NCBI GenBank assembly: GCA_001574975.1
Contig: KQ965867.1
Location: forward strand, 47,707-111,706
Reading direction: 5' to 3'
Length of the DNA stretch: 64,000 nucleotides
From: Gonapodya prolifera JEL478
Taxonomy: Eukaryota; Monoblepharomycota; Monoblepharidomycetes; Monoblepharidales; Gonapodyaceae
Within the stretch, counting starts at the first letter, position 1, and the number at the start of each line of letters is the position of its first letter. The notes under the pieces are model-generated. The model saw nothing but the letters and a program-made list of their open reading frames with translations, was not told the origin of the DNA and ran no database searches. A program made the translations under genes and the position numbers. Positions 5,762 through 37,875 of this stretch are shown in pieces.

Positions 5762-8700
5762 ATGGGTTCGGGCAGCTTTGACGACGACCTTTCCTCTCTT
5801 TTCCTCTCCCCGGGTGGTCCCTGGGACATCGTATCCCCTGAAGAGTCTGGAGAGACCGGCGTAGTGGAGCTTCGATGCCATCGAGGCCCCTCTGTTACCA
5901 TCGTATGTACCAATGTCGGCGAGTATCTCAATTCCGCGAAATGGATTTTGTTTTCGCCGGATGGGGATGAAGAAATCGGTGGGTCCTTCGCGTCTTCGTC
6001 GGTAGAAGTGTTCGCGACCTTGAAACCACTCCTCGCCGCCTTTCAACTAGCTTCATTGATGATTAATATCAGCGAAAACATTTCCGATGGGTCTGACCTT
6101 CGCACAGTGGTCGACACCATCACTCGAGCGCTCGGTGTATCTCCAAGTCACAAGTCCTCTCCATCGACGTCTGCACAAACGACCCAGTCGAAACCCCTTC
6201 CAAAGAGTTTGGAGATAGCACCAGCTGTAGAAGCACTGTCGAAACCCACTCACCCCGCCGCAATCCCTATCCAGCCTCGTGTCATAAACCTCCTCAAGCG
6301 CGACATCATCCAAACTCGTCTCGCTGGATACCCGCACACATGGTGCGACACCCACGCCTCAGGCTTATACATTCGCACCGCAGTGTCAATCGTCAGTTTG
6401 TCATGCCGGGGCTGGCTTGATGCTGAAGCGTGCGAGAGTTGGGGGGTACCCCTTCACAACTGGATATTCCTCTGCGGCAGATTCCCGACTTCAAAATACG
6501 TTTCCGCAGTCAGGGCAACATCGTGCGGAGAGAATGCCTGCGGTGTCGCAGGGTTCACAGTGGAGAGTGGACCCGAATTTGAAGTCGAGGAGGATGAAGG
6601 CTTGCTCGATGATGGAACATCACAGCCCTTTCAATTTCGGGCCGGATTATGTGAATCTCCCGTTGATGTTGAATTCGGCGATGTCCTAGAATTGTTTCAA
6701 GAGAGCAGTGATGATTTTATGATGGACAACGACCGTGACCGCACAATCCGCCTGCGCTCGTTTCTTCTCTCCTCGCCGCTGAGAGAGATAATGAGCGACC
6801 ACTTCCTTCAACTTCTCCACTACCGTCTGCAGCATGCTCTTGGATGGAGGGGCGCGGAGGAACTCCACCGCAGCCGTCGCACCACCCCGGACTTTTGCAG
6901 GCGATTCGCTGCGGTGGCCAAGGGAGGGGCCGAAGCTCGCATAGTCGCACTTGCTGAGGACCGCGAAGTTTTAGCGATGGCCGATGCAACTGACCCCTGC
7001 CAGCATCATCGTCCTCGGGATGGCCAGATTGATGCGGAAGTAGACGACTTGGACGACTTGCAAGGACCACCCTTGGACGAGACCATCGACGTTCATAGCA
7101 GGTTCAATGTCTGGCTTTTGGCAGTCCGGTACTCCCTTCGCCGCATTGTTCATGCCCCACGCTTCTGTCTCGTCTGCCATAACGAAGTGGCAGCGGCAAA
7201 CTCGCCAACGGCTTCGGCACTTCTACTGAAGCCCTTCGTGTGTGAAAACGAAGAATGTACATCACTTTACTTGGAGCACGGCATGGGTGCATCACTGGAG
7301 CTAGACCTGGCGAGAGATCCCAGAGTTGTCGAGCTCCTCATAAACCTGGCATACGTGCATGACTGGTCTACCACCAGACTTCCCAAAGTTCCAGCAAGAA
7401 GGGATAAATCTTCGAGGAAAAGGCGAGGACATAAGGGAGTGGGTGGGTCGCCAGCTTCATCCAGTGTTGCTGGAGGTGCGTCAAGGAGTTCGACAACAAA
7501 CCTGTTGGCGCACGCGGGCAGCGTCCAGGACACGAAAGCGTTGCTAGATCAGCTGCCGTCTGTACGTGACATGGTCATGTATCTTGACTGGATCGGCCAT
7601 TCCCTTGGACCTGCTGCCCGCAGTTACCTTCGCGAGACCGCTCCAGAAAGCAACTCATACGCCCAAAATGTGCCAGATTTTGATCCTGTGTCCGCGGTCT
7701 CGTCGAAGACACGTGATAGCGCCCTTCGAGGAATGTTAGACCCAATTGATCCGGCACTTTATCCCCTCCTCCGATGGATTGTCGCCTCAAACCGTTCGTA
7801 CCTGCGACACCTGACAAACCCTGCTGAGAGACTGGAAGGGCTGGGTGACGGGTACCTGCAGTTTAAAATGATGGCGGGATCGCCAGAGAAGGAGGCAAAG
7901 TTCTCAGTGGAGAAGAACTTGGCCATTCATGAGGGCAGGGATCCGCCAACGCTTTACGGTAAGTGCTGCCGTTTTGTGCCGCAGCCAATGTGTCACCTCA
8001 TATATTTTTCATATAGCTTTCCATGGCAGCAGTCTCGCGAACTGGCATTCCATCATCCGCACTGGTCTAAATTTTGATCGCTCTGTGAACGGTCGTGCTT
8101 ACGGAAATGGAGTCTACTTTTCCCCGCACATGGCGACTTCACTTGGTTTTTCGGTCAATCTTATGGGGCGTTTGATTGTCGCCGGTGGCTCAGCAAGAAC
8201 TCAGACGCAAAACATGTCGTGGAAAAATAGCACACTCCGACTACAACACATCCTCAGCCTTGTTGAAATCATCAACCGACCGGAGAAGTTTGTTTCCAGC
8301 ACTCCCCACCTGGTGGTGCAGCACACAGATTGGGTTGAAACGAGATATCTCTTGGCACATTATGCTCAAAATACCGCGGGCGCAACTGAAGGAACCAACG
8401 CGAACAACACAGGAGCTGTGGCAAAACTTGGTGCTTGGCCAGCTGCGCTACCACACGGTTTCACCATCTTTGGACCCATACCACACATCCCTAGTTGGCC
8501 TGGGCTTGTAGCTGCTCCGTTCAATGGAAACCACGTCAATGTGGGTCCAGCCGCGAATGTGAGCACCGGTGCAGATGATCAATTCGAGAAAATGGACCCT
8601 CGCTATCAGCCGACATCCGTCAGTGGAGTTGTGATCCGAATCCCCAAACAGAGTGAAGCTGTTCCAGCACTTTTCGGAGTTTCGGCTGCAGATCTTGAGG

Positions 8701-9611
8701 CGCTTGCACCCCCAGCACCTGGCTTACTTGACGGTTTTGATTCGCTAGATGCTACACCGGCTGACAATGCGGTGGACTTGACTCAGGATGATGACTCCGT
8801 TCAAGCTCGCCAAAGGAAAGGCAAAGGCAAGAGACCACACTATATGTTGGAAGACGAAGACTCTTCGGAAAGAGAATTAACGCGGGATAAGCGGGCAAAG
8901 CAAGGGGCGAGCGCAAAACTTTCCGGGTCCTCATCCCTCTCAGCTGCCTTGGAACCCAAATCGTCATCTAGTTCAAACGGCACAAGCGCAACTCCAACAG
9001 AGTTGGTTGCAGAAGCAATCGCTGATATGCCCCCTCCACAACATGCTACAACGTCAGCCACAAAGGCGCTTTTCAAAGAGTTGCGGAGGATGATAAAACT
9101 GACGGAAGACCAACCTGATGAGCGTGTGAGGGGATGGACTATTGATCTATCCTCCTTTACAAATCTATACCAGTGGAGGGTTTGCTTGACAAATTTTGAT
9201 CGGTCTCTCCCACTCGCCAAGGATCTTGCAAGTGTGGGACTGCGCGATAAAGGGGTCACCCTTGAGGTTAGATTCTCCCCGGAATTCCCCTTCGAACCAC
9301 CTTACGTCAGGGTCATCGAACCAAGGTTTCTCCCCTTTTCACAAGGTGGTGGTGGTCACATTACGATCGGGGGTTCCGTCTGCATGGACTTGCTCACGAG
9401 TTCTGGCTGGGTAAGTGGGTACACCCTCGAGTCAGTGCTCCTCCAGATTCGTCTTGCACTCGAGTCGATGGACCCTAGACCAGCGCGGATAGATCCCTCC
9501 CATTGGAATCGTCCGTATACAGAGGCAGAGGCGATGGAGGCGTACGTGAGGGTGGCGACGGGACACGGGTGGGCAGTGCCAGCGAATTGGAGGAGATACT
9601 TCTCGTCTTAG
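5762..9611 (+). CDS. PARP6/8-like ADP-ribosyltransferase fused to a UBE2Q-like E2 domain
   Basis: Two exons (5762-7958, 8017-9611) join in phase to give 1263 residues. A Cys cluster (C469, C472, C494, C499) sits in a segment resembling the region before the catalytic domain of PARP6/PARP8. The PARP domain begins at FHGSSLANWHSIIRTGL (His735) and continues to GNGVYFS (Tyr766), the first two positions of the H-Y-E triad. Where most poly-PARPs carry the catalytic Glu, the aligned segment near 828-831 reads TPHL, so poly-ADP-ribosylation is unlikely; mono-ADP-ribosylation or no activity is expected. An acidic, basic and Ser-rich linker (about 850-1060) follows. The C-terminal E2 fold resembles UBE2Q, with candidate active-site Cys1188 in GGSVCMDLLTSSGW. 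The ATG at 5762 is preceded by a good context. Fungal PARP-UBC proteins are a known but little-studied architecture. The intron interrupts the codon just before the catalytic His block. Confidence 0.9.
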
Positions 9612-15359: not shown

Positions 15360-17607
15360 ATGGGCCGTGGGTTCATTGCACCAGCCTTTGCGGCTTTCAC
15401 TCTGCTTGCGGGAGCACTGCTTCTCCTCCCGAATGGGGCACACGCTTCGAACGGTCTGACCGTCATTCCACCTCAAGTTGCATACACCCCGGGTCGCAAG
15501 TCGATGACAAATCCAATCAATGTTTACATTAGTAAGTGTTCACCCCCTTTTGCTCCATACGTACGAGAACTCGTTGATGCCTTCCTGTTCACGTCGGTAG
15601 TTTGGTATGGTGCAAATTGGACCCCAAACAGCAAAGCTATCATTACCGATTTCATTGCTGGTTTCGACAAGTCTGATGTGTGGAAAGTGGCAACGAAGTG
15701 AGCGTACGCGTGCTCTGCTAATGGTGGGAAACAAAAACTCACAAAAATACTGCACCTGAATATGTTAGGTACTACAACACTGACAAAACTGGCACCTCGC
15801 CAAAGACGTTTGTTTCGAGCACCCTAAAGCTTAATGGCCAATCTGATGATCGTTCATATTCGCTTGGGAAATTCCTCAACTTCCACACCTCCAAAAACTA
15901 CGACGACCTCCTTACTTTAAGTACGTCACGAACGATAATTTACGTTGAATGGGACACATGCATCAAAAATCTTTAACGTAAACATAGTTCAAGCACACAT
16001 TCAAGGGGGGCGATTGCCAACGGACCAGAACGGCATCTATCTGGTTCTGACGGACGACCAAACACTCGAGGCCGGATTCATGAGGAACTATTGCTCCAGT
16101 AAGGGATACTCTTTTTGATCAAGACCGACGTTTATTCATGTTCAGTCCAACTCCTGTTCCTTAACAGAGGTTGGGAGCACTGCAGCTGTTAAACTCGCCG
16201 CGAAGCAGGCCAAAGACAATCGAATCAGCAGCAGAGCTCCAGATGTTCGATGGGTCTTCGCCGGAAGCACGAAGGCCACATCAAAGGATGGGCCTCTTGG
16301 ATGCACGTCATACAACACTGATGTCTCTCCTAACGGTAACCCTGACGTGGACATTATCGTCGATAGTATTGCGAACGGTATTCTCAACTTCGCCGTCAAC
16401 CCTGTAAGTGTTGGGATGTATTTGCAACTGCCTGTTTTGCTCATTTGTTCTCGATTAGTGGGTCGACCCGTCACTCGATGCTTGGTCAGACAAAGAGGAT
16501 GGCTGGAACGACGGATTTCCACCAGGTGAGTGACCTCTGAAGTTCCACAGAGAAGGGGAGACTAATACCTGTGATTCCGTCTTTCACTCGAATTTCCACG
16601 TCAACTTGGTCTGACCAGCCGCAAACTGCGCTTGTAAGTCTCTGTTGAACCCGTTTTAGGAGTTCATGAAAAAAGTAACACAACTTGCACAGTCAACTAT
16701 GGGAACACCGCTGTCGATGGTCAAGGGGCTCTTTACAACGAGCAATGGAACGGCCGGAAATACTTAATTCAGCGCATGTGGGACCCCGAAGCTCAACTCT
16801 GCCATCCGCGATCTGCCAATGTCCCTTCGGACTGCACAGCTCTGCAGCAGATCTTGAGCAATCAGACTTACCTTGGAGATGACTGCTGCAATTCGGGGTA
16901 AGTGGTTTCCTTTTGAAATCACACCATATTCCCGCATTTCAATATTGAACACTGCCCAAATAGATACGCGAGCTGCGCTAATGGTCACATCGTTGGATTG
17001 GACTTGACCAACTTTGGCCTCACCGATACCCCAGAGGTTGTCATTGACACGCTTCAATCGGCGTTTCCCGACCTTCGCGTCCTTGATCTCAGTAAGAACT
17101 CCATGGCCGCTGGTCCAGTCCCCACGTCAATCTGCCAATTCCAGAAGCTCGAATTCCTCTGGATGCGCAACTTCACAACCGCGCCAACGTCCCTTCCTGA
17201 CTGCTTTGGGAGCATGACGAATTTGAAGTTGTTCAGTGTGGTGTCCAACAGCCGACTTAGCGGGCCCGTCCCTCAGTCGCTGACAAAGCTCAGCAACCTG
17301 AGGGAAGTTTTACTGGATGGATGTGATTTCACAGGAACCTTCCCAGACTTTTCCAAGTCACCCAAGTTGACTGCTGTCTCTGCGTCTGGTAACTCGAAGC
17401 TCTCTGGTAAACTGTGAGTGACACGACCATCACCCCCGTCTCGTATCATGCCTCATTTATTCCTCTGCGCCCCCCAGCGTCTCCGGATACAAGGCGCTCG
17501 ATAAGCCACTGCTCAACAAAGACGGCACGTACGACGGAAGCTGCGATCTTTCTGGAACGAAAGTCTGCTCCGCAGGGGGCCCTGACTGCAAGGTTAAGAA
17601 GTGCTAG
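15360..17607 (+). CDS. Secreted EXORDIUM (Phi-1) domain protein with C-terminal leucine-rich repeats
   Basis: Ten exons (15360-15531, 15601-15697, 15769-15920, 15988-16098, 16168-16403, 16459-16525, 16619-16633, 16693-16897, 16964-17413, 17478-17607) join in phase to 544 residues, including a 15-bp micro-exon. Residues 1-30 form a signal peptide (LLAGALLLLPNGAHA). Residues about 50-330 match the plant EXORDIUM/phosphate-induced-1 family block by block: WYGANWTPNSKAIITDF, the SLGK segment, GIYLVLTDDQTLEAGF, SPNGNPDVDIIVDSI, and NGRKYLIQRMWDP before a Cys. Residues about 352-480 are plant-type LRRs (LDLTNFGLTDT, LRVLDLSKN, GPVPQSLTKLSNL, FTGTFPDFSKSPKL), followed by a Cys-rich end. Plant EXORDIUM proteins are secreted cell-wall growth regulators with no known enzyme activity. 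A fusion to LRRs in a fungus is unusual. A decayed copy lies 3.3 kb downstream. Confidence 0.88.
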
Positions 17608-17777: not shown

Positions 17778-19905
17778 ATGGCTGCCACGTTCTCGTCCTC
17801 CGCGCGCACCGTTGATCCATCAGCAGGGATTGGTTCCCCTTCAACCGGAGGACCTCACGACATCGGCGGCGTTCCACTGGTGGAGTGAGTGCAGCCGCAC
17901 GTTGTCCACGCCGATCGTTCTTGATTTCGGTCCCAAATTGTGATTGGCGCGACCGCATCGTTGTCCCCGAACCCAGCGAAAGCCCCTCACTGAACCTGGA
18001 AAACCACGTCAAAGCACTTTGGGAGAAGCAAGTGGATGCCATCCGGGGCATCGCTCAGGCCAAGGGTCTCATGAACGTCGACCAGCTTCGGCGGGGTGTT
18101 GAGCAACTCGAGCCCGAAGTGTACCGCGACTGGAGTTACTATGGTGGGTTTACATGCAGACATGCGAGCTCGCGAGAGAGGTGAAATGACCGAATGCTTT
18201 GGTGGTGTGGTTTGGATAGGCAAGTGGGCCGCCTCCATCTGCCGCATCCTCCTCGAAAAGGGCGCGCTCACCCAATCCGACCTCGACGCCGAGCTGGGCC
18301 CTCCTGCTTCCGATACCACGGTCCGATTTGCGCAAGGACAGCGCGTCCGCGTGAAACCGGAGCAGACTAAGTCGAGGTGGAGAAAACCACACCTGCGAGT
18401 GCCAGGGTACATCTACTCGGCGAGAGGGGTCGTGGAGAGAGTGGCGGGGGTGTTCAAGAACCCGGAGGCTCTGGCGTTTAATTTGGATACGGACGCGGTG
18501 CAGCCGTTGTATCGGTGAGTCTCCCCATACGTCGACTATCGTTCCAGATGTAGTAGCACGCGAATCTTTATCCTCAGCGTTCGTTTCCCCATGCGTGAAG
18601 TATGGAAGCAGTACCCTGGCTCGAACAACGACAGCATTGGTAAGTGACCCGAATTTGCATTGTTTGCTTCACCGTGACGACCCACCTCCACATCACCAAA
18701 CAAGACGTCGAGATATACCAGCAGTAAGTCGTGGCGAAATAATGCGTCTCTCGTGTGAAATCTCAATATCGCCACCTACCTTCGTCCGGGTCTCCATACA
18801 TCTGGGCACGCGGCATGCCCAACAGCTGGTTGGAACCCGATGATCACCCTTCACCTTCCACGGCATCCCACGATCACTCCCACACCGACCACGACCACTC
18901 CCACACAGACCACGCGCACTCCCACAACGATGACGGCACCTCGCACACCGGGCACGCTCACGACCACTCGTCGCCCGCCCACGCCCAGCACGCCCACTCA
19001 CACGACGGCGGCATCCCTCACGTGCACGAATCGCGCGCCCAAGTCGAGCAAACCGCCGTGGACCGTGAAGGTCCCGAAGGCGCCGACGAGCATTTCGCGA
19101 AATGTTTCATCGCGGCGTGTGTCAAGAAGGGCGTCACGAGCGTGCAGCAGCTCGCCGAGGTTGTAGAGAGGAGGGATGCGATTGAGGGGAGAGGTGAGTT
19201 TTCCTGCAAAGGACTTCGGTGTTGCACGTGGGGATGACGGAAGCGTTGTTACGTAAAGGGTTCGGACCGATCATCGTGGCCAAGGCATGGTCGGACCCAG
19301 AGTTCAAGAACCTGCTTCTCAAGGACGCCGCAAAGGCCGTGGCTGGCGTGGGCGTGGCCCTGGAGACGGAGATGATGGCGGTGGAGAACACGGAGTCGGT
19401 GCACAATGTATGTCAAATCGGCTTGGCCATGCGTGCTGCTTTAAACACCCTCATCACCCTCTTGATTCCCCATCCTTGCACACCATCTTCCCTCACTCTG
19501 CCCCCCCTCCCCCAACCCCAACCTACCACATCAGCTCATTGTGTGCACCCTCTGCTCATGCTACCCTCGCTCGGTCCTCGGACTCCCACCGGACTGGTAC
19601 AAGTCGCGCCTTTACCGCAGCCGCGCTGTGACAGACCCGCGGGGTCTTTTGAAGGAGAGCTTTGGGCTCGAGGTCCCAGGGAATGTGGAGTTGAGAGTTC
19701 AGTAAGTGCTGGGGTAGAATGTAGGCCGGTGGTGTACAATGGTGACTAATGCGACGTCAATTTCAGCGACTCGACAGCCGATATGCGGTACCTGGTCATC
19801 CCGGCGCGTCCTAAGGGCACCGAAGGGTGGAGCGAGGAGAAGCTGCAGGCGCTGGTAACGAGGGATATGATGGTAGGCGTAGCGGTGCCCAAGGTTGACG
19901 CGTGA
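17778..19905 (+). CDS. Nitrile hydratase, fused beta and alpha subunits with His-rich linker
   Basis: Nine exons (17778-17884, 17977-18143, 18220-18514, 18578-18639, 18705-18723, 18826-19193, 19259-19407, 19535-19701, 19767-19905) join in phase to 490 residues. The first about 220 are the beta subunit: [42 protein letters not shown] and the [10 protein letters not shown] end. A linker (about 230-290) holds some 19 His in about 55 residues, mostly as HDHSH and HAHSH units. The alpha subunit follows, with the metal-binding cluster CTLCSC (Cys393, Cys396, Cys398); Thr at the second position marks the cobalt type. Next come [11 protein letters not shown] and [15 protein letters not shown]. The enzyme hydrates nitriles to amides, normally as an alpha-beta complex with oxidised cluster cysteines. 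Fused beta-alpha forms with a His-rich linker were described in the choanoflagellate Monosiga. No signal or mitochondrial sequence is visible. No activator or amidase gene is in the window. Confidence 0.94.
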
Positions 19906-26463: not shown

Positions 26464-27906
26464 TCATCGAACAATTCCAGGAAACGCCTTCAGCGAGTTC
26501 TCCCACGCGGCAGTGTACACGTCCTCAACGTTGAGTCCCTTCTCCTTTGCAATCCGCTCAGCGATGAACGGAAGAAGCCCCGAGTGGTTCACGCGTTGCC
26601 GGTGTGGTTCAGGGGCGATATCTGGTCCACGTCCCCGAGAAAGCACGTGAGCTCAAGAAGCTTTGCTCACCGACAAAAAGGACACAGCCATCACACTTAC
26701 ACGGCGCGACACTCTCCAACAAAATCTTCTCCACGGGCAAGTACCTCGCCAACTCGCGCACACCATCCGCCTCCGTCACCCCAAACGTCACGAACCCCGA
26801 CACCCCAAAGTACGCCTCGGGTACCACGTCAAGAATGTCCCGCGCTGACTCGACCGAGCCAGTGTAGTTGTGCACTACCACACGAGGCGGCCGAGCTTGG
26901 CGAGCAGACTTGAGGATGCCGAGGACGTCGGCGTCCCCGCCGCGTGAGTGCACGACGAGCGTCTTCCCGTGCCGCGCGGCCATGTCGACTTGGCTCTCGA
27001 ATACGGTCCGTTGCAAGAACCGCGTGGCCTTTTCCAACTTCACGTCGTCCACGTAGTTCAGTCCTGCCTCGCCCACGCCCACACAGTCCGGTGCTTTAAC
27101 GAGCTCTTCCAGGCGTGCGTGCACGGCGTCGGTGTACTTGTGTGCTGCGAGGGGGTGGCACCCGTAAACGGTTGATATCCGGGGCGAGAATTGCGTTATG
27201 TGGGTGTTGAGGTCGTATGCGGACGGGTCGGAGGCAATGTTGATAAAGTATTGGACACGAGGTGCTGCAGCATGTTTTACTTGAGGGTGGTTGTGGCGGA
27301 AGGAGGGCCACGTCGTCGATGGGACGAGGTGTCGAGGAACAAGGACAAACATTACATCCCATTCGTAACGCGCCCGCCAAACGACATCGCTTAAAATCTT
27401 GAAATTCCCTCAGAATTCAAGAAAGACTCACGCTCGTTATGCTTATACGACGCCAACAGCGACATCCACGCGACTTCCGACACCGGCAACCGTTTCCGAT
27501 AAAACACCTCCGCCAAGTGCGTATGCGTGTCCACGATCGGCGCCGGACCTCCACTGCCTACTCCTGCAGTCGACCCTCCACCGCCTGTTTCGGATGTCGC
27601 AGGGGGGGAGGTGAGGTGTTCGGTGTGGGGGGAGATCTCGTCACCGACCCGAGAGGCTTCGGAGGCAAGGGCAGGATTGGATTCGAGGAATTGACGCGTG
27701 GGGTGGATGATGGGCAGAGAGCCCAGGTCGGATGGGTGATGATGGTCCTCCGTGAAGTCGAGCTCCGGGTGATCCGCGAGGACTGTCGCGGGATATGCGG
27801 GATGTGCGGATTCGGGTGCAGCCGCGGCCGGGTGCGAGAAATGGCGGCTGACGATGGGCGATGGAGCGGGAAGGCGACGGGCGGCACGGAGGAGAGGTCC
27901 GAACAT
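26464..27906 (-). CDS. TatD-family metal-dependent hydrolase with a lost Asp ligand
   Basis: Three exons (27906-27432, 27279-26701, 26621-26464) join in phase to 403 residues. The first about 125 residues form an extension rich in Ala, Arg and Pro, with a mitochondrion-like start (MFGPLLRAARRLPAPSP). The TatD barrel follows: PIVDTHTHL (metal HxH), TVYGCHPLAAHK, VGVGEAGLNY (metal Glu), TLVVHSRGG, RVVVHNYTGS and APYIAPEPHRQR. In TatD nucleases the motif before the last block is ETDAP, whose Asp is a catalytic metal ligand; here it reads ESVAP, Val for Asp, a single-base difference. The Asp of GLD is also Asn. TatD proteins are 3'-5' exonucleases or deoxyribonucleases; this one may be inactive or altered. 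The first intron (152 bp) is longer than its neighbours. Confidence 0.87.
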
Positions 27907-33540: not shown

Positions 33541-35461
33541 ATGAGATTGTCGACGATTCTAGTCACTTTCGCGCTAGTGCCTTTCATCGGCGCTTTGGCA
33601 CAGCTCTCGGGACCCGTGAGTGTCTTTTTTGAGACGAAAGTCCACCTGTTGGTCCAAAGCGCCATACTTCCCTTGTCAGGTCGGCCCCTCAACTTCCATT
33701 TGTAAAAAAACAACCATCTGCAATGTGTTGAACTTCGGTGCGAAGGCGGATGGTGCCACTGTGAGTCTTGGTGGGCTTTCGACCACTTCCGAGCGAATCC
33801 CCCAATGGCTAGACACCTATCACGACCTAACTTGCTTTCAGGACATTGGGCCTGCCATTCGTTCTGCATTCACGAATTGTGTCTTGAAAGCGAGCGGCGG
33901 CGGCGCCACCCTCTACGTTCCACCTGGAAACTATGCCATGGCGACCTGGGTGACGCTCGCAAACGGGAACAAATGGGCGTTCCAGATGGACGGAGTGAGT
34001 CAACGTGTACTGCTGCGAGTTGAGTGAGGACGTGGCTGATTGCAATACGGTCCCCCTTTGTCAAGATTATCACCAGGACTGGTACGGCCGGCGGTCACAT
34101 GATCATTATCCAGGGCGGAAGCGATCTCGAAATGTTCTCCAAGACCAGAGCCGGAGCTTTCCAAGGCGCCGGGGTTGATTTCCACAAGCAAGGGAAAAAC
34201 ATTTACGGTCCACGGATATTGAGACTCGTTCAAGTCTCAAATTTCGCCCTGCACGACTTAGGATTCTTCGACTCACCGGCGTTCCATGTTGTTCTCGGTG
34301 GGTTGAATGTTTCTGGTGCATGGTATGTTTGTCCAGTAGTAGGACCTCAATTTCCCTCCTCTGGCCAGATAACGTTTCCAACGGAGATATCTACAACATA
34401 CTCATCCGAGGTCACGATGAGGGCGGTCTTGATGGCCTTGACGTCATCTGGTGAGCTGAAGCTTATATCAATTCGGTAGTTACTTCTATGAATGCGCATT
34501 TATCCCCTGGCATAGCAACAATTGCCACATCCAATACGTCGAAGTGACCAACCGCGATGAATGTGTTTGTGTCAAGGTGAGACTGGAACGTCTTCGATGT
34601 TGAAGCAACTGCAACGTCACTCGTGATTCCAAAACGACAAACCCAAACGCCCCACCAGAGCCCGTCGTCCAATCTCCTCATCGAAGATGTATTCTGCAAC
34701 CAGTCTGGAGGAATGTCAATGGTGAGCTGGGCACTGTCTTGCGCGTCATGGTGCACGAACTGGTCGCTCGCGACACCAACTTTCCGCTCGGCAATTCCAG
34801 GGATCGTTCAAGGATGGAACAGCCGTTGAGAACGTGCATATGCGAAACATCTACTCGCACTTCAGCACACAGTTTTTAATGATCAAGACATACCCCAATG
34901 GGAACGGATTTGTGCGAAACGTGAGTTACTTTGACGAGGTCCCGCACAACGCCAGAAAACCTTTATGAGCAAACGCAGTGCCACTTCGAGAACTTCAAGG
35001 GTACAACTAACGCCTACGGTCTCCAACTCTCCCAGTACTGGCTCAACTCCGCGGCGGGTCTCAGCAGCGACACGTCGGGCGTCCAGCTCTCCAACCTCCA
35101 ATTCACCAACTGGGTCGGTCTTTCAAACGACGCCAACTCCCGCGCACCAGTGTTTCTGAACTGCTCTCTCCCGAACCCCTGTGTGGAAATTACCATTGGA
35201 TCGGACGTTCAATTCTGGGATCCCACCCACTCCATGACTGCGTACCGGTGCCAGTCTGCGTACGGGACCGGCGCGCCCTGCCTACCCAATAGTTCCTCGG
35301 GCCCGGCGTATCCAGGGAAAACTTCCACGGTGACGACGATTCCCGCTGGATGGTCGTCTCCATCTCCACCAAATGGCGCTCTCAGCCAGGGATTTCCCCT
35401 CACATCTCCGATTCCGGTGGAAGCGTTGCCGTGGCCTCCGCTCAAGGCAGTCTCGTGTTAG
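33541..35461 (+). CDS. Secreted GH28 rhamnogalacturonan hydrolase
   Basis: Nine exons (33541-33615, 33680-33760, 33842-33994, 34066-34297, 34369-34450, 34516-34576, 34659-34721, 34801-34920, 34979-35461) join in phase to 449 residues. Residues 1-20 are a signal peptide (MRLSTILVTFALVPFIGALA). The beta-helix shows the pectate-lyase-like start (VLNFGAKADGAT, ATLYVPPGNYAM) and the GH28 signatures: GGLDGLDV (D202, D205), VEVTNRDECVCVK (D222 with neighbouring E223), and SGGMSMGS, followed by RNIYSHFSTQFLMIK. The DE pair and SGG block are typical of rhamnogalacturonases rather than polygalacturonases, which have DD and GHG. The enzyme would cleave the rhamnose-galacturonic acid backbone of pectin outside the cell. 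The C-terminal Pro/Ser-rich tail is unusual. A mutated tandem copy follows. Confidence 0.92.
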
Positions 35462-36080: not shown

Positions 36081-37875
36081 ATGAGGTTGACGACGATTCT
36101 AGCTGCTTTGCGCTCGCGCTTTTCATCGGAACCTTTGCACAGCTTACGGGACCCGTGAGCGTCTTTTGAGACGAAGATGTGCCCACGTCCTCAAAACGCC
36201 ATACTTCCTCGACAGGTCGGACACTTGACATCCATTTGTCAAAAGACAGCTGTTTGCAATGTATTGGACTATGGAGCGAAGGCGGGCGGTGTCACGATGA
36301 GTCTTTGCGGCGATTTCGATACCGCCGAAACACTTAACGCGACCTGCCTTGGCTTCAAAGGACGTTGGACCTGCGATTCTCTCTGCATTCACAAATTGCG
36401 TCTTGAACGCAAGCGGGGGTGCCACGCTCTACGTTCCGCCTGGAAACTACGCCATGGCTATTTGTGACACTCAGGAACGGGAATCAATGGGCCCTCCAGA
36501 TGGACGGATTGGAGTTCACTTTCATGATAAGTCCGCTTCAAGAAGCAGACTGGGGGTGTAGTTTTTCAAGATTATCACGAGAACAGGCACGGCGGGGGGT
36601 AACATGATCATCATCCAAGGCGGAAGTGATTTCGAAATGTTCTCACAGACCCGAGCTGGAGCTTTCCGGGGTGCTGGGGTCGATTTTCACAAACAAGGTC
36701 TCCACGTTTATGGTCCGCGAAAATTGAGAATCGTTCGTGTCTCGCATTTCGTACTGCACTATTTGGGATTCTTTGACTCACCGGCGTTCAATATTATTCT
36801 TGGTAAGTCACATCTCGACGTGAAGGGTTTCCAAACTTTGAAATGCTGATCGTCTTGTTTGATCTGATTCACATTTCCCTCCTCGTCGCAGATAACGTCT
36901 CCAACGGGGATATTCACAACGTACTTATCCGAGGTCACGACGAGGGAGGTCTTGATGGGCTCGATGTCATCTGGTGAGTGTTGAAGCTTGTGTAAATTTG
37001 TTCCGATGCTGGACAAACCGAACGACTCAATCCCTGAACATAGCAACGACTGCCACATTCAAAACATCGAAGTGACCAACCGTGATGAATGCGTCTGCGT
37101 CAAGGTGAGACTGGAAGCATCCAAGTTTCTCGTGATTCCAAACCGAACCCGAACGGCCGTCCAGATCCCGTCGTCCAATCTCCTCACCGCTTCCGCTGTA
37201 CGATTTCAGGGGTCGTTCAAAGAGGGAACAGCTGTCGCGAACGTATATATGCGAAACATCTACTCACACTACAGTGCACAATTCCTTATGTTTAGACGTA
37301 CCCCAATGGCAACGGATTCGTCCGAAATGTGAGTTGTTTCAGTTCACTGTTCGAGCTCACCAATATGACGAATTACCCCTCAATTATGGAACCAATGTCG
37401 CTTCGAAATCTTCAACGGCACCACGAATGCCTACGGTCTCCGACTCTCCCAGTACTGGCTCAACTCCGGGGCGGGTCTCACTAATGACTCGTCGGGCGTG
37501 CAGCTCTCCAACCTCACCTTCACCAACTGGATCGTTCTCTCCAACGACGCCAATCAGCGCGCTCGCGTGTTTCTGAACTGCTCTCTCCCGAACCCGTACG
37601 TTCAAATCAACATTGGCGCGGATGTTCAGTTCTGGAATCAAGAAGCGCCCGGAAAGTATGGCGCACCGGACCCATACGCAAACTGGCACCGGTACGCGGT
37701 CATGGAATGTTCTGGCCCGGCGTATCCAGGGAACACTTCCAAGGTGACGACGATTCCCGCCGGATGGTCTTCGCCATCTCCTCCAAATGGCGCGCTCGGT
37801 CAAGGACTCCCCCTGACGTCGCCGATTCCAGTGGAAGCGTTGCCGTGGCCTCCGCTCAAAGCAGTTTCGTGCTAG
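36081..37875 (+). pseudogene. Mutated tandem copy of the GH28 gene
   Basis: The copy is alignable along its whole length but has at least six lesions: a one-base loss in the signal peptide near 36108; a GT donor changed to AT after exon 2 (about 36296); a frame change near 36460 in exon 3 and loss of the following donor; loss of part of exon 7 and the next intron near 37190; a frame change near 37292; and loss of the last acceptor near 37392. Catalytic blocks remain readable (GGLDGLDVI, VEVTNRDECVCVK). The last exon is well conserved from FNGTTNAYGL to the stop. It was probably a rhamnogalacturonan hydrolase before decay. Confidence 0.9.

Follow-up and report, generated by a model that had tools for sequence, protein, structure and literature searches.

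A predicted one-chain nitrile hydratase of Gonapodya prolifera and its probable kinship with bacterial three-gene nitrile hydratases

The window analysed here, a stretch of 64,000 nucleotides from contig KQ965867.1 of Gonapodya prolifera JEL478 (assembly GCA_001574975.1), contains a nitrile hydratase (NHase) gene whose nine exons join into a single frame of 1473 nt, encoding 490 amino acids without an internal stop (Table 1). All eight introns have GT and AG at their ends and are 63-127 nt each. The splicing is predicted from the sequence and from homology. For example, the 19-nt exon 5 is supported by the conserved block that it completes, DVEIYQ-HWLEP, the counterparts of which read DIYEHWLEP and EIYEHWLEP in two bacterial βC proteins. 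The original prediction of a nuclear eukaryotic gene with nine exons is retained.

Table 1. Features of the NHase gene (positions in the window; residues of the predicted protein).
Feature	Position	Strand	Description
Fused β-α nitrile hydratase gene	17778..19905	+	Nine exons, 490 codons, Pfam matches
Exons (stop codon in the last)	17778-17884, 17977-18143, 18220-18514, 18578-18639, 18705-18723, 18826-19193, 19259-19407, 19535-19701, 19767-19905	+	
βN domain	17847..18299	+	Residues 24-118, with Arg74, Tyr91, Trp94
βC SH3-like domain	18306..18841	+	Residues 121-222, with Arg151
β-α linker	18839..19087	+	Residues 222-304, 20 His
His-dense linker core	18869-19033	+	Residues 232-286
Tandem repeat of 21 bp (42 bp) within the linker	18868..18948	+	HDHSHTD-type heptads
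α domain	19088..19902	+	Residues 305-490; Pfam NHase_alpha
Cobalt-type metal site C393-T-L-C396-S-C398	19544..19561	+	Exon 8; a phase-0 intron lies nine bases upstream

The predicted protein matches three Pfam families in one chain, NHase_beta_N at residues 25-116 (8.1e-17), NHase_beta_C at residues 122-221 (9.1e-18) and NHase_alpha at residues 313-484 (7.6e-71), in agreement with the β-then-α fusion that had been proposed from the DNA. The cobalt-type CTLCSC cluster was likewise found, at residues 393-398 of a VCTLCSC stretch that begins at residue 392. The three cysteines and the serine of the metal site, as well as Arg74 and Arg151, are invariant in all 95 aligned bacterial rows. Arg74, Tyr91, Trp94 and Arg151 presumably correspond to Arg52, Tyr68, Trp72 and Arg157 of the β-subunit. 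By its sequence, the protein is a predicted cobalt-type NHase, with the metal site, both β domains and both invariant arginines present. It scores below the cut-offs of the NCBIfam models for NHase α (227.4 bits, cut-off 249.85) and NHase β (108.2 bits, cut-off 152.2), which were built for bacterial and archaeal annotation; among bacterial proteins, the α-subunits of loci L004 and L005 pass the α model, and a βN-α fusion (L080) lies narrowly below its cut-off with 249.0 bits. At least 60 PDB sequences match the protein; those listed are NHase α and β chains, thiocyanate hydrolase γ chains and one NHLP leader-peptide construct. Thiocyanate hydrolase is a homologous split-β three-subunit enzyme. 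This identity was rejected for the fungal protein, the α domain of which reaches 172.9 bits on the γ-subunit model (cut-off 291.45), compared to the higher score on the NHase α model. The gene order of thiocyanate hydrolase is given in PMC7193024.

The assembly comprises 47.56 Mb in 207 contigs, and the gene lies within one that is at least 111.7 kb long. No second NHase locus was found in the genome, where searches with the α family and with the βN family (PF21006) both matched the region 17778-19905 only. Lys2 is a mark of fungi, and radial spokes are a mark of flagella. Pieces of a Lys2-like gene (α-aminoadipate reductase) lie on contig C8, in order over model positions 1-1365 of 1390, each of them under the 1030-bit cut-off (454.5 at best); matches below the cut-off likewise occur in 12 of 14 control genomes. 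A radial-spoke gene on contig C3 is represented by six ordered matching pieces. Taken together, the Lys2-like and radial-spoke genes probably point to a zoosporic fungus; a single-celled opisthokont related to fungi and sharing their lysine pathway would be a less likely host. An Opi1 match narrowly above the cut-off was located inside the window, where the 20 frames scanned out of 169 long ones also gave matches to F-box, PARP, E2 and LRR families. The genome further has a match to a NicO-type nickel/cobalt transporter gene and 42 pieces matching the amidase family. Aldoxime dehydratase (PF13816) and hydrophobin (PF01185) gave no match in the genome, and none in the control genomes either.

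Some features of the window are recorded here in their own right. A gene for an LRR protein (16917-17607) lies on the same strand as the NHase gene and ends about 170 bp upstream of its start codon. One frame at 7872-9608 has matches to both PARP catalytic and ubiquitin-conjugating-enzyme families. The frames at 34925-35458 and 37369-37872 look alike by eye and may form a tandem pair; the former has a sub-threshold match to polygalacturonase (GH28).

The best places in a search of plasmids with the whole protein include NHases in which two small "SH3-like" proteins make up the β-subunit. Of 14 plasmid loci picked by hand from 50 rows of a "spread" ranking, two (L093 and L094) are three-gene loci with the order βC-α-βN, and a further one (L103) has its β-subunit in two frames, yet groups with the classical NHases. 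A scan of GTDB with an alignment of the α half gave at least 593 matching stretches, all confirmed by tblastn. Similarity to the fungal α domain was the basis on which loci were selected, and the design of the search pattern drew on three α-subunits from three-gene loci. The architecture among the best 80 of these at least 593 stretches is βN-βC-α in 63, α-full β in ten, full β-α in two, a βN-α fusion with a separate βC in two, a βN-α fusion in which no βC was seen in one, and α-βN-βC in one, with one locus unclassified as its α gene lies near the end of the DNA. Across the 100 classified bacterial loci, the full β-α order was observed in nine, and none has βN, βC and α in one frame. Viral contigs encode no relative in two scans, with the α protein and with the α-half alignment. 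The fungal NHase is at most 55% identical to the 95 aligned bacterial loci in the α domain, and with βN and βC included the identity does not exceed 50%. Among individual tblastn segments, the best has 62% identity over 147 residues (L048).

The bacterial βN-α fusions are located at positions 4512-5540 in L042, 4482-5447 in L077 and 3193-4152 in L080, and each has a His-containing segment between its halves. A separate βC gene is situated downstream in L077 and L080, and none was seen in L042. These fusions represent a second, bacterial route of fusion.

The surroundings of the bacterial loci vary. The βC-α-βN order is accompanied by nearby cobalt transport genes in L006 (CbtAB), which also has aquaporin and cytochrome P460 genes, and in L093 and L094 (NiCoT). 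L041 contains two consecutive βN-like frames (2005-2943) in a three-gene NHase locus. On a Planktothrix plasmid (L004, 871-5227), the three NHase genes immediately follow genes for asparagine synthase, GST and NADAR, perhaps as a small natural-product cluster. In Rhizobium (L101, 2456-3127), a lone α-like NHase is placed within a 7-cyano-7-deazaguanine (QueC/QueE) cluster, an arrangement that we take to resemble toyocamycin NHase. A comparison of 71 loci revealed a recurrent neighbourhood in some Rhodobacterales three-gene loci, e.g. L014, L026, L043 and L068, with an aconitase-like gene in 18 loci and an acyltransferase-like gene in 18, both named from reading the sequences; the three-gene NHase appears as if vertically inherited there. 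Since these recurrent neighbours resemble chromosomal Rhodobacterales housekeeping genes, they give no hint of the substrate.

To place the fungal protein, we inferred a quick tree from the concatenated βN, βC and α domains of 96 rows (L011, L042, L057, L098 and L101 omitted). Starred branches separate the classical NHases (25 rows) from the three-gene NHases together with the fungal NHase (71 rows), and the fungal NHase is placed inside a 68-row part of the three-gene side (98, starred). In a careful tree of 70 of the 96 rows, from which 26 had been thinned out, the classical set without the fungal NHase received 100/100, and none of 200 bootstrap trees united the three-gene rows without it. 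The branch of the fungal NHase is long in every tree. Three loci with βN and βC in two frames that group with the classical NHases (L007, L082 and L103) were counted as classical in the careful tree, the profiles, the separating columns, the spacer comparison and the accessory tally. Domain profiles were built without the fungal NHase from 25 rows each, namely 25 randomly drawn from 70 three-gene rows and all 25 classical rows. The three-gene profiles gave 85.0 bits for βN, 98.3 bits for βC and 251.4 bits for α, compared to 57.3, 50.7 and 228.6 bits for the classical ones. At 17 columns that separate the two groups, the fungal NHase has the three-gene state in 12, the classical state in three and neither in two; it is gapped in five of the 17, and one of these gaps, scored as classical, is a product of trimming. 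Consistently, only six residues separate the βN and βC profile positions in the fungal NHase, compared to a middle segment of 31-39 residues in 24 classical β-subunits. A short βN-βC junction and a His-rich α tail are shared with the three-gene loci (including L005, L053 and L004). These comparisons show that the fungal NHase is, at the sequence level, more similar to the bacterial three-gene than to the classical two-gene NHases. It is their kin rather than a member, as βN, βC and α form a single fused chain.

Classical NHases are accompanied by an accessory (activator) gene of the P14K or NhlE type. A profile seeded with 11 annotated accessory proteins identified such a gene at 25 of 27 loci on the classical side, including all 11 seeding loci, or at 14 of 16 without these. 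It is present in 13 of 15 classical α-first loci and in all nine full β-α loci. By contrast, the profile search of the locus DNA found none in the 71 three-gene or βN-α-fusion loci (L011 and L101 are omitted from the tallies). Splitting of the β-subunit is not by itself equivalent to the absence of an activator, since L007, L082 and L103 all have the accessory gene. Thus, the presence or absence of the accessory gene follows the tree and not the mere splitting of β. No P14K-type accessory gene was found in the fungal genome with TIGR03889, and PF21006 matched only at the NHase locus, in a search conducted exon by exon that may miss short, intron-split genes; as a control, TIGR03889 matched three of three classical plasmids and none of three three-gene plasmids. 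The independence from an activator is best read as ancestral.

The linker between the β and α halves contains 20 His in 83 residues, some with HxH spacing. The densest stretch of 55 residues (232-286) has 19 His, which is the density that had been noted originally. At an assumed background of 2.5% His, 87 residues would contain 20 His or more with a probability of 4e-14, a figure that treats the His as independent draws, which they are not, since part of the linker is a tandem repeat. This repeat has a 21-bp unit in three copies (18868-18930), or alternatively a 42-bp period that extends to 18948.

Similar His-rich segments occur at the N-termini of the bacterial α-subunits. In 66 βN-βC-α loci (L103 included), the tail, taken as the stretch between the selected start codon and the α core, has on average 33 residues and 6 His, and 55 of the 66 tails have at least 4 His. 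The start was the first start codon near the βC end in the βN-βC-α loci and the first ATG of the frame elsewhere, a rule that makes the tails of L006, L079 and L086 too long; L066, L078 and L096, for which no start was obtained, are not in the tail count. The controls were 200 other frames of at least 150 amino acids from three-gene loci, each with a relative in one or more further loci; one of them reaches 4 His within its N-terminal 33 residues. In several loci, among them L041, L045 and L020, the tails largely consist of HD or HDH repeats. Tails with at least 4 His are also present in 12 of 14 classical α-first loci, and in one of seven full β-α loci. The His tail does not track the absence of an activator, because it is equally common in the classical α-first loci, where the accessory gene is mostly present. 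In the bacterial βN-α fusions, the segment HDHDGKPIQED in the linkers of L042 and L080 is close to the HTHDGKPIQED of L046 and L062, in which the tail is free, and the His-containing linker of L077 differs from it. The bacterial fusion thus turns an α tail into a linker, and the eukaryotic linker may therefore be read likewise. Accordingly, the most likely reading of the fungal linker is that of an N-terminal α tail which was inherited and was lengthened by the 21-bp repeat. Their homology is deduced from position and composition, since segments of such low complexity do not permit a reliable alignment.

Several other origins of the gene were weighed against a derivation from three-gene NHases. 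Contamination or an assembly artefact was rejected, with a probability that we put close to nil, given the eight spliceosomal-type introns, the position of the gene inside a long contig and the F-box, PARP, E2, LRR and Opi1 matches in the window; nor did the low identity to the 95 bacterial loci and the long branch reveal a source within one bacterial genus. A recent transfer from another eukaryote, e.g. a protist, in place of vertical inheritance in fungi is a less favoured but sizeable alternative. It agrees with the patchy distribution of the gene, for which none of 159 fungal genomes gave a match in 2012 (PMC3323583), and with the GC content of its coding sequence (0.616, GC3 0.743), which is above that of the window (0.533). 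However, GC3 is comparable (0.699) in one frame nearby (26612-27409), and the introns of the NHase gene are short and of the GT-AG type. The gene could also have arisen by fusion of a classical two-gene operon in the β-α order of Rhodococcus or Geobacillus, with loss of the activator and of the middle segment of β. This order does exist among the classified loci, and a quick tree of the α domain alone put the fungal NHase in one group with the classical clade and L033 and L036, both three-gene loci (SH-aLRT 83, below star level). A tree constrained to keep the fungal NHase with the classical set is worse by 18.7 log units, but the AU test does not reject it (p-AU 0.077). Such an origin is nevertheless improbable in view of the higher three-gene scores in all three domains, the 12 to three ratio of diagnostic columns and the missing β spacer, and also because the full β-α loci have mostly His-poor tails and an accessory gene without exception.

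A different role for the linker was suggested in the original prediction, namely that it is a built-in loader or store of cobalt that replaced the bacterial activator after the fusion. The abundance and HxH spacing of its His, the failure to find an accessory gene in the fungal genome and the presence of a NicO transporter would fit this idea. Yet it has little probability, as the three-gene relatives already have the tail and lack the accessory gene at their loci, while many classical α-first loci have both. Furthermore, a review that cites Yang 2018 states that metal incorporation does not depend on the Monosiga region with 17 His (PMC7193024), the counts of such His reported for Stephanoeca and Salpingoeca are as low as 5 and 2 (Marron 2012, PMC3323583), and the function of a chaperone is assigned to βN in the three-gene enzyme of Streptomyces canus (PMC7329996). 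The part of the original prediction in which the linker stands in for the activator is therefore unlikely, and the His segment would have an auxiliary role at most, e.g. in cobalt buffering, without being essential.

The architecture is the same as in the fusion described in Monosiga, as had been predicted. The Monosiga protein has 496 amino acids, a His-rich stretch and a gene with one intron, and an inversion was invoked to explain its subunit order (PMC2603476). According to PMC3323583, NHase genes occur in five supergroups and β-α fusions in several of them, a His-rich stretch between the halves is an opisthokont feature, and a loss in fungi was inferred, the genomes searched including 159 fungi with no NHase match; the expectation that such a gene is unusual in fungi agrees with this survey. 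As described in these two papers, the fusions share with the fungal NHase a single β-then-α chain, CTLCSC, a His-rich middle, introns in most cases and the lack of a known activator. They differ in that the fungal gene has nine exons, compared to one intron in Monosiga and ten in Sphaeroforma, in the 20 His of its linker, set against published counts of 17 in Monosiga, 12 in Thecamonas and 11 in Sphaeroforma, and in the fungal host. Elsewhere, NHases have been called "exclusively prokaryotic" (PMC10098168), and the activators of eukaryotic NHases are described as undiscovered (PMC7193024). None of the titles and abstract openings found in the literature, mostly outside subscription journals, describes a fungal NHase.

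The three-gene NHase of S. canus has the order anhD-anhE-anhA and is reported without an activator gene, and AnhD, the N-terminal half of β, is described as a metal and swapping chaperone (PMC7329996). The enzyme is called "similar to eukaryotic NHase" in the same source, citing Guo 2019, so that the literature already outlines a link of eukaryotic NHases to the three-gene type; its three-subunit form without an accessory protein is also mentioned in PMC13243292. By this description, it has the βN, βC, α order, the lack of an activator and the cobalt type in common with the fungal NHase, but consists of three separate bacterial proteins with a shorter tail. Classical cobalt-type NHases share the domains, the metal site and the β arginines with the fungal NHase, but are encoded by two genes, have the longer β middle segment and mostly an accessory gene, and are not its nearest kin according to the profiles. 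An artificial β-α fusion of the classical Pseudomonas putida enzyme was reported to remain dependent on P14K (PMC4709657), as expected if the independence from the activator belongs to the lineage and not to the fusion.

On balance, we consider it probable that the fungal protein is a one-chain cobalt NHase derived from a three-gene NHase, that it is free of an activator with βN acting as a chaperone in cis, and that the His segment has a helper role at most. Three adjacent genes would have been joined in their existing order to give βN, βC, a His-rich segment and α, for which no inversion is needed, and the N-terminal tail of the bacterial α would have become the linker, later extended by the repeat. 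Once the chain is made, its β and α halves may fold on each other, with the βN domain holding α open for Co2+ as the in-cis counterpart of the free chaperone AnhD. Co2+ could then enter the CTLCSC site without a separate activator, upon which the cysteines would oxidise and the Co(III) site would hydrate nitriles to amides, from which the amidases encoded in the genome could release ammonia and acid. Cobalt uptake and the use of amides are plausible given the matches to the NicO transporter and to amidases. As for the role of the enzyme, nitrogen scavenging or nitrile detoxification are guesses.

New in this study are the fungal gene, a tree in which it is represented, the β spacer, the count of architectures and the tallies of accessory genes and His tails. 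With the fungal gene, the range of eukaryotic fusion NHases comes to include a probable fungus, a group for which loss of the gene was inferred in PMC3323583. These results also suggest a concrete bacterial type as the source of the fusion, which would remove the inversion assumed by Foerstner 2008. The two puzzles of the eukaryotic enzymes, the lack of an activator and the His-rich linker, may be recast as inherited bacterial traits. The idea of βN as a chaperone in cis is directly testable, and a cobalt NHase encoded by a single gene and free of an activator would be of practical interest. More tentatively, and with slightly less than even chances in our view, all eukaryotic NHases may have originated from one activator-free three-gene bacterial operon by fusion in the existing gene order, with βN as a built-in chaperone and the old N-terminal tail of α as the linker, and this zoosporic fungus would have kept the gene.
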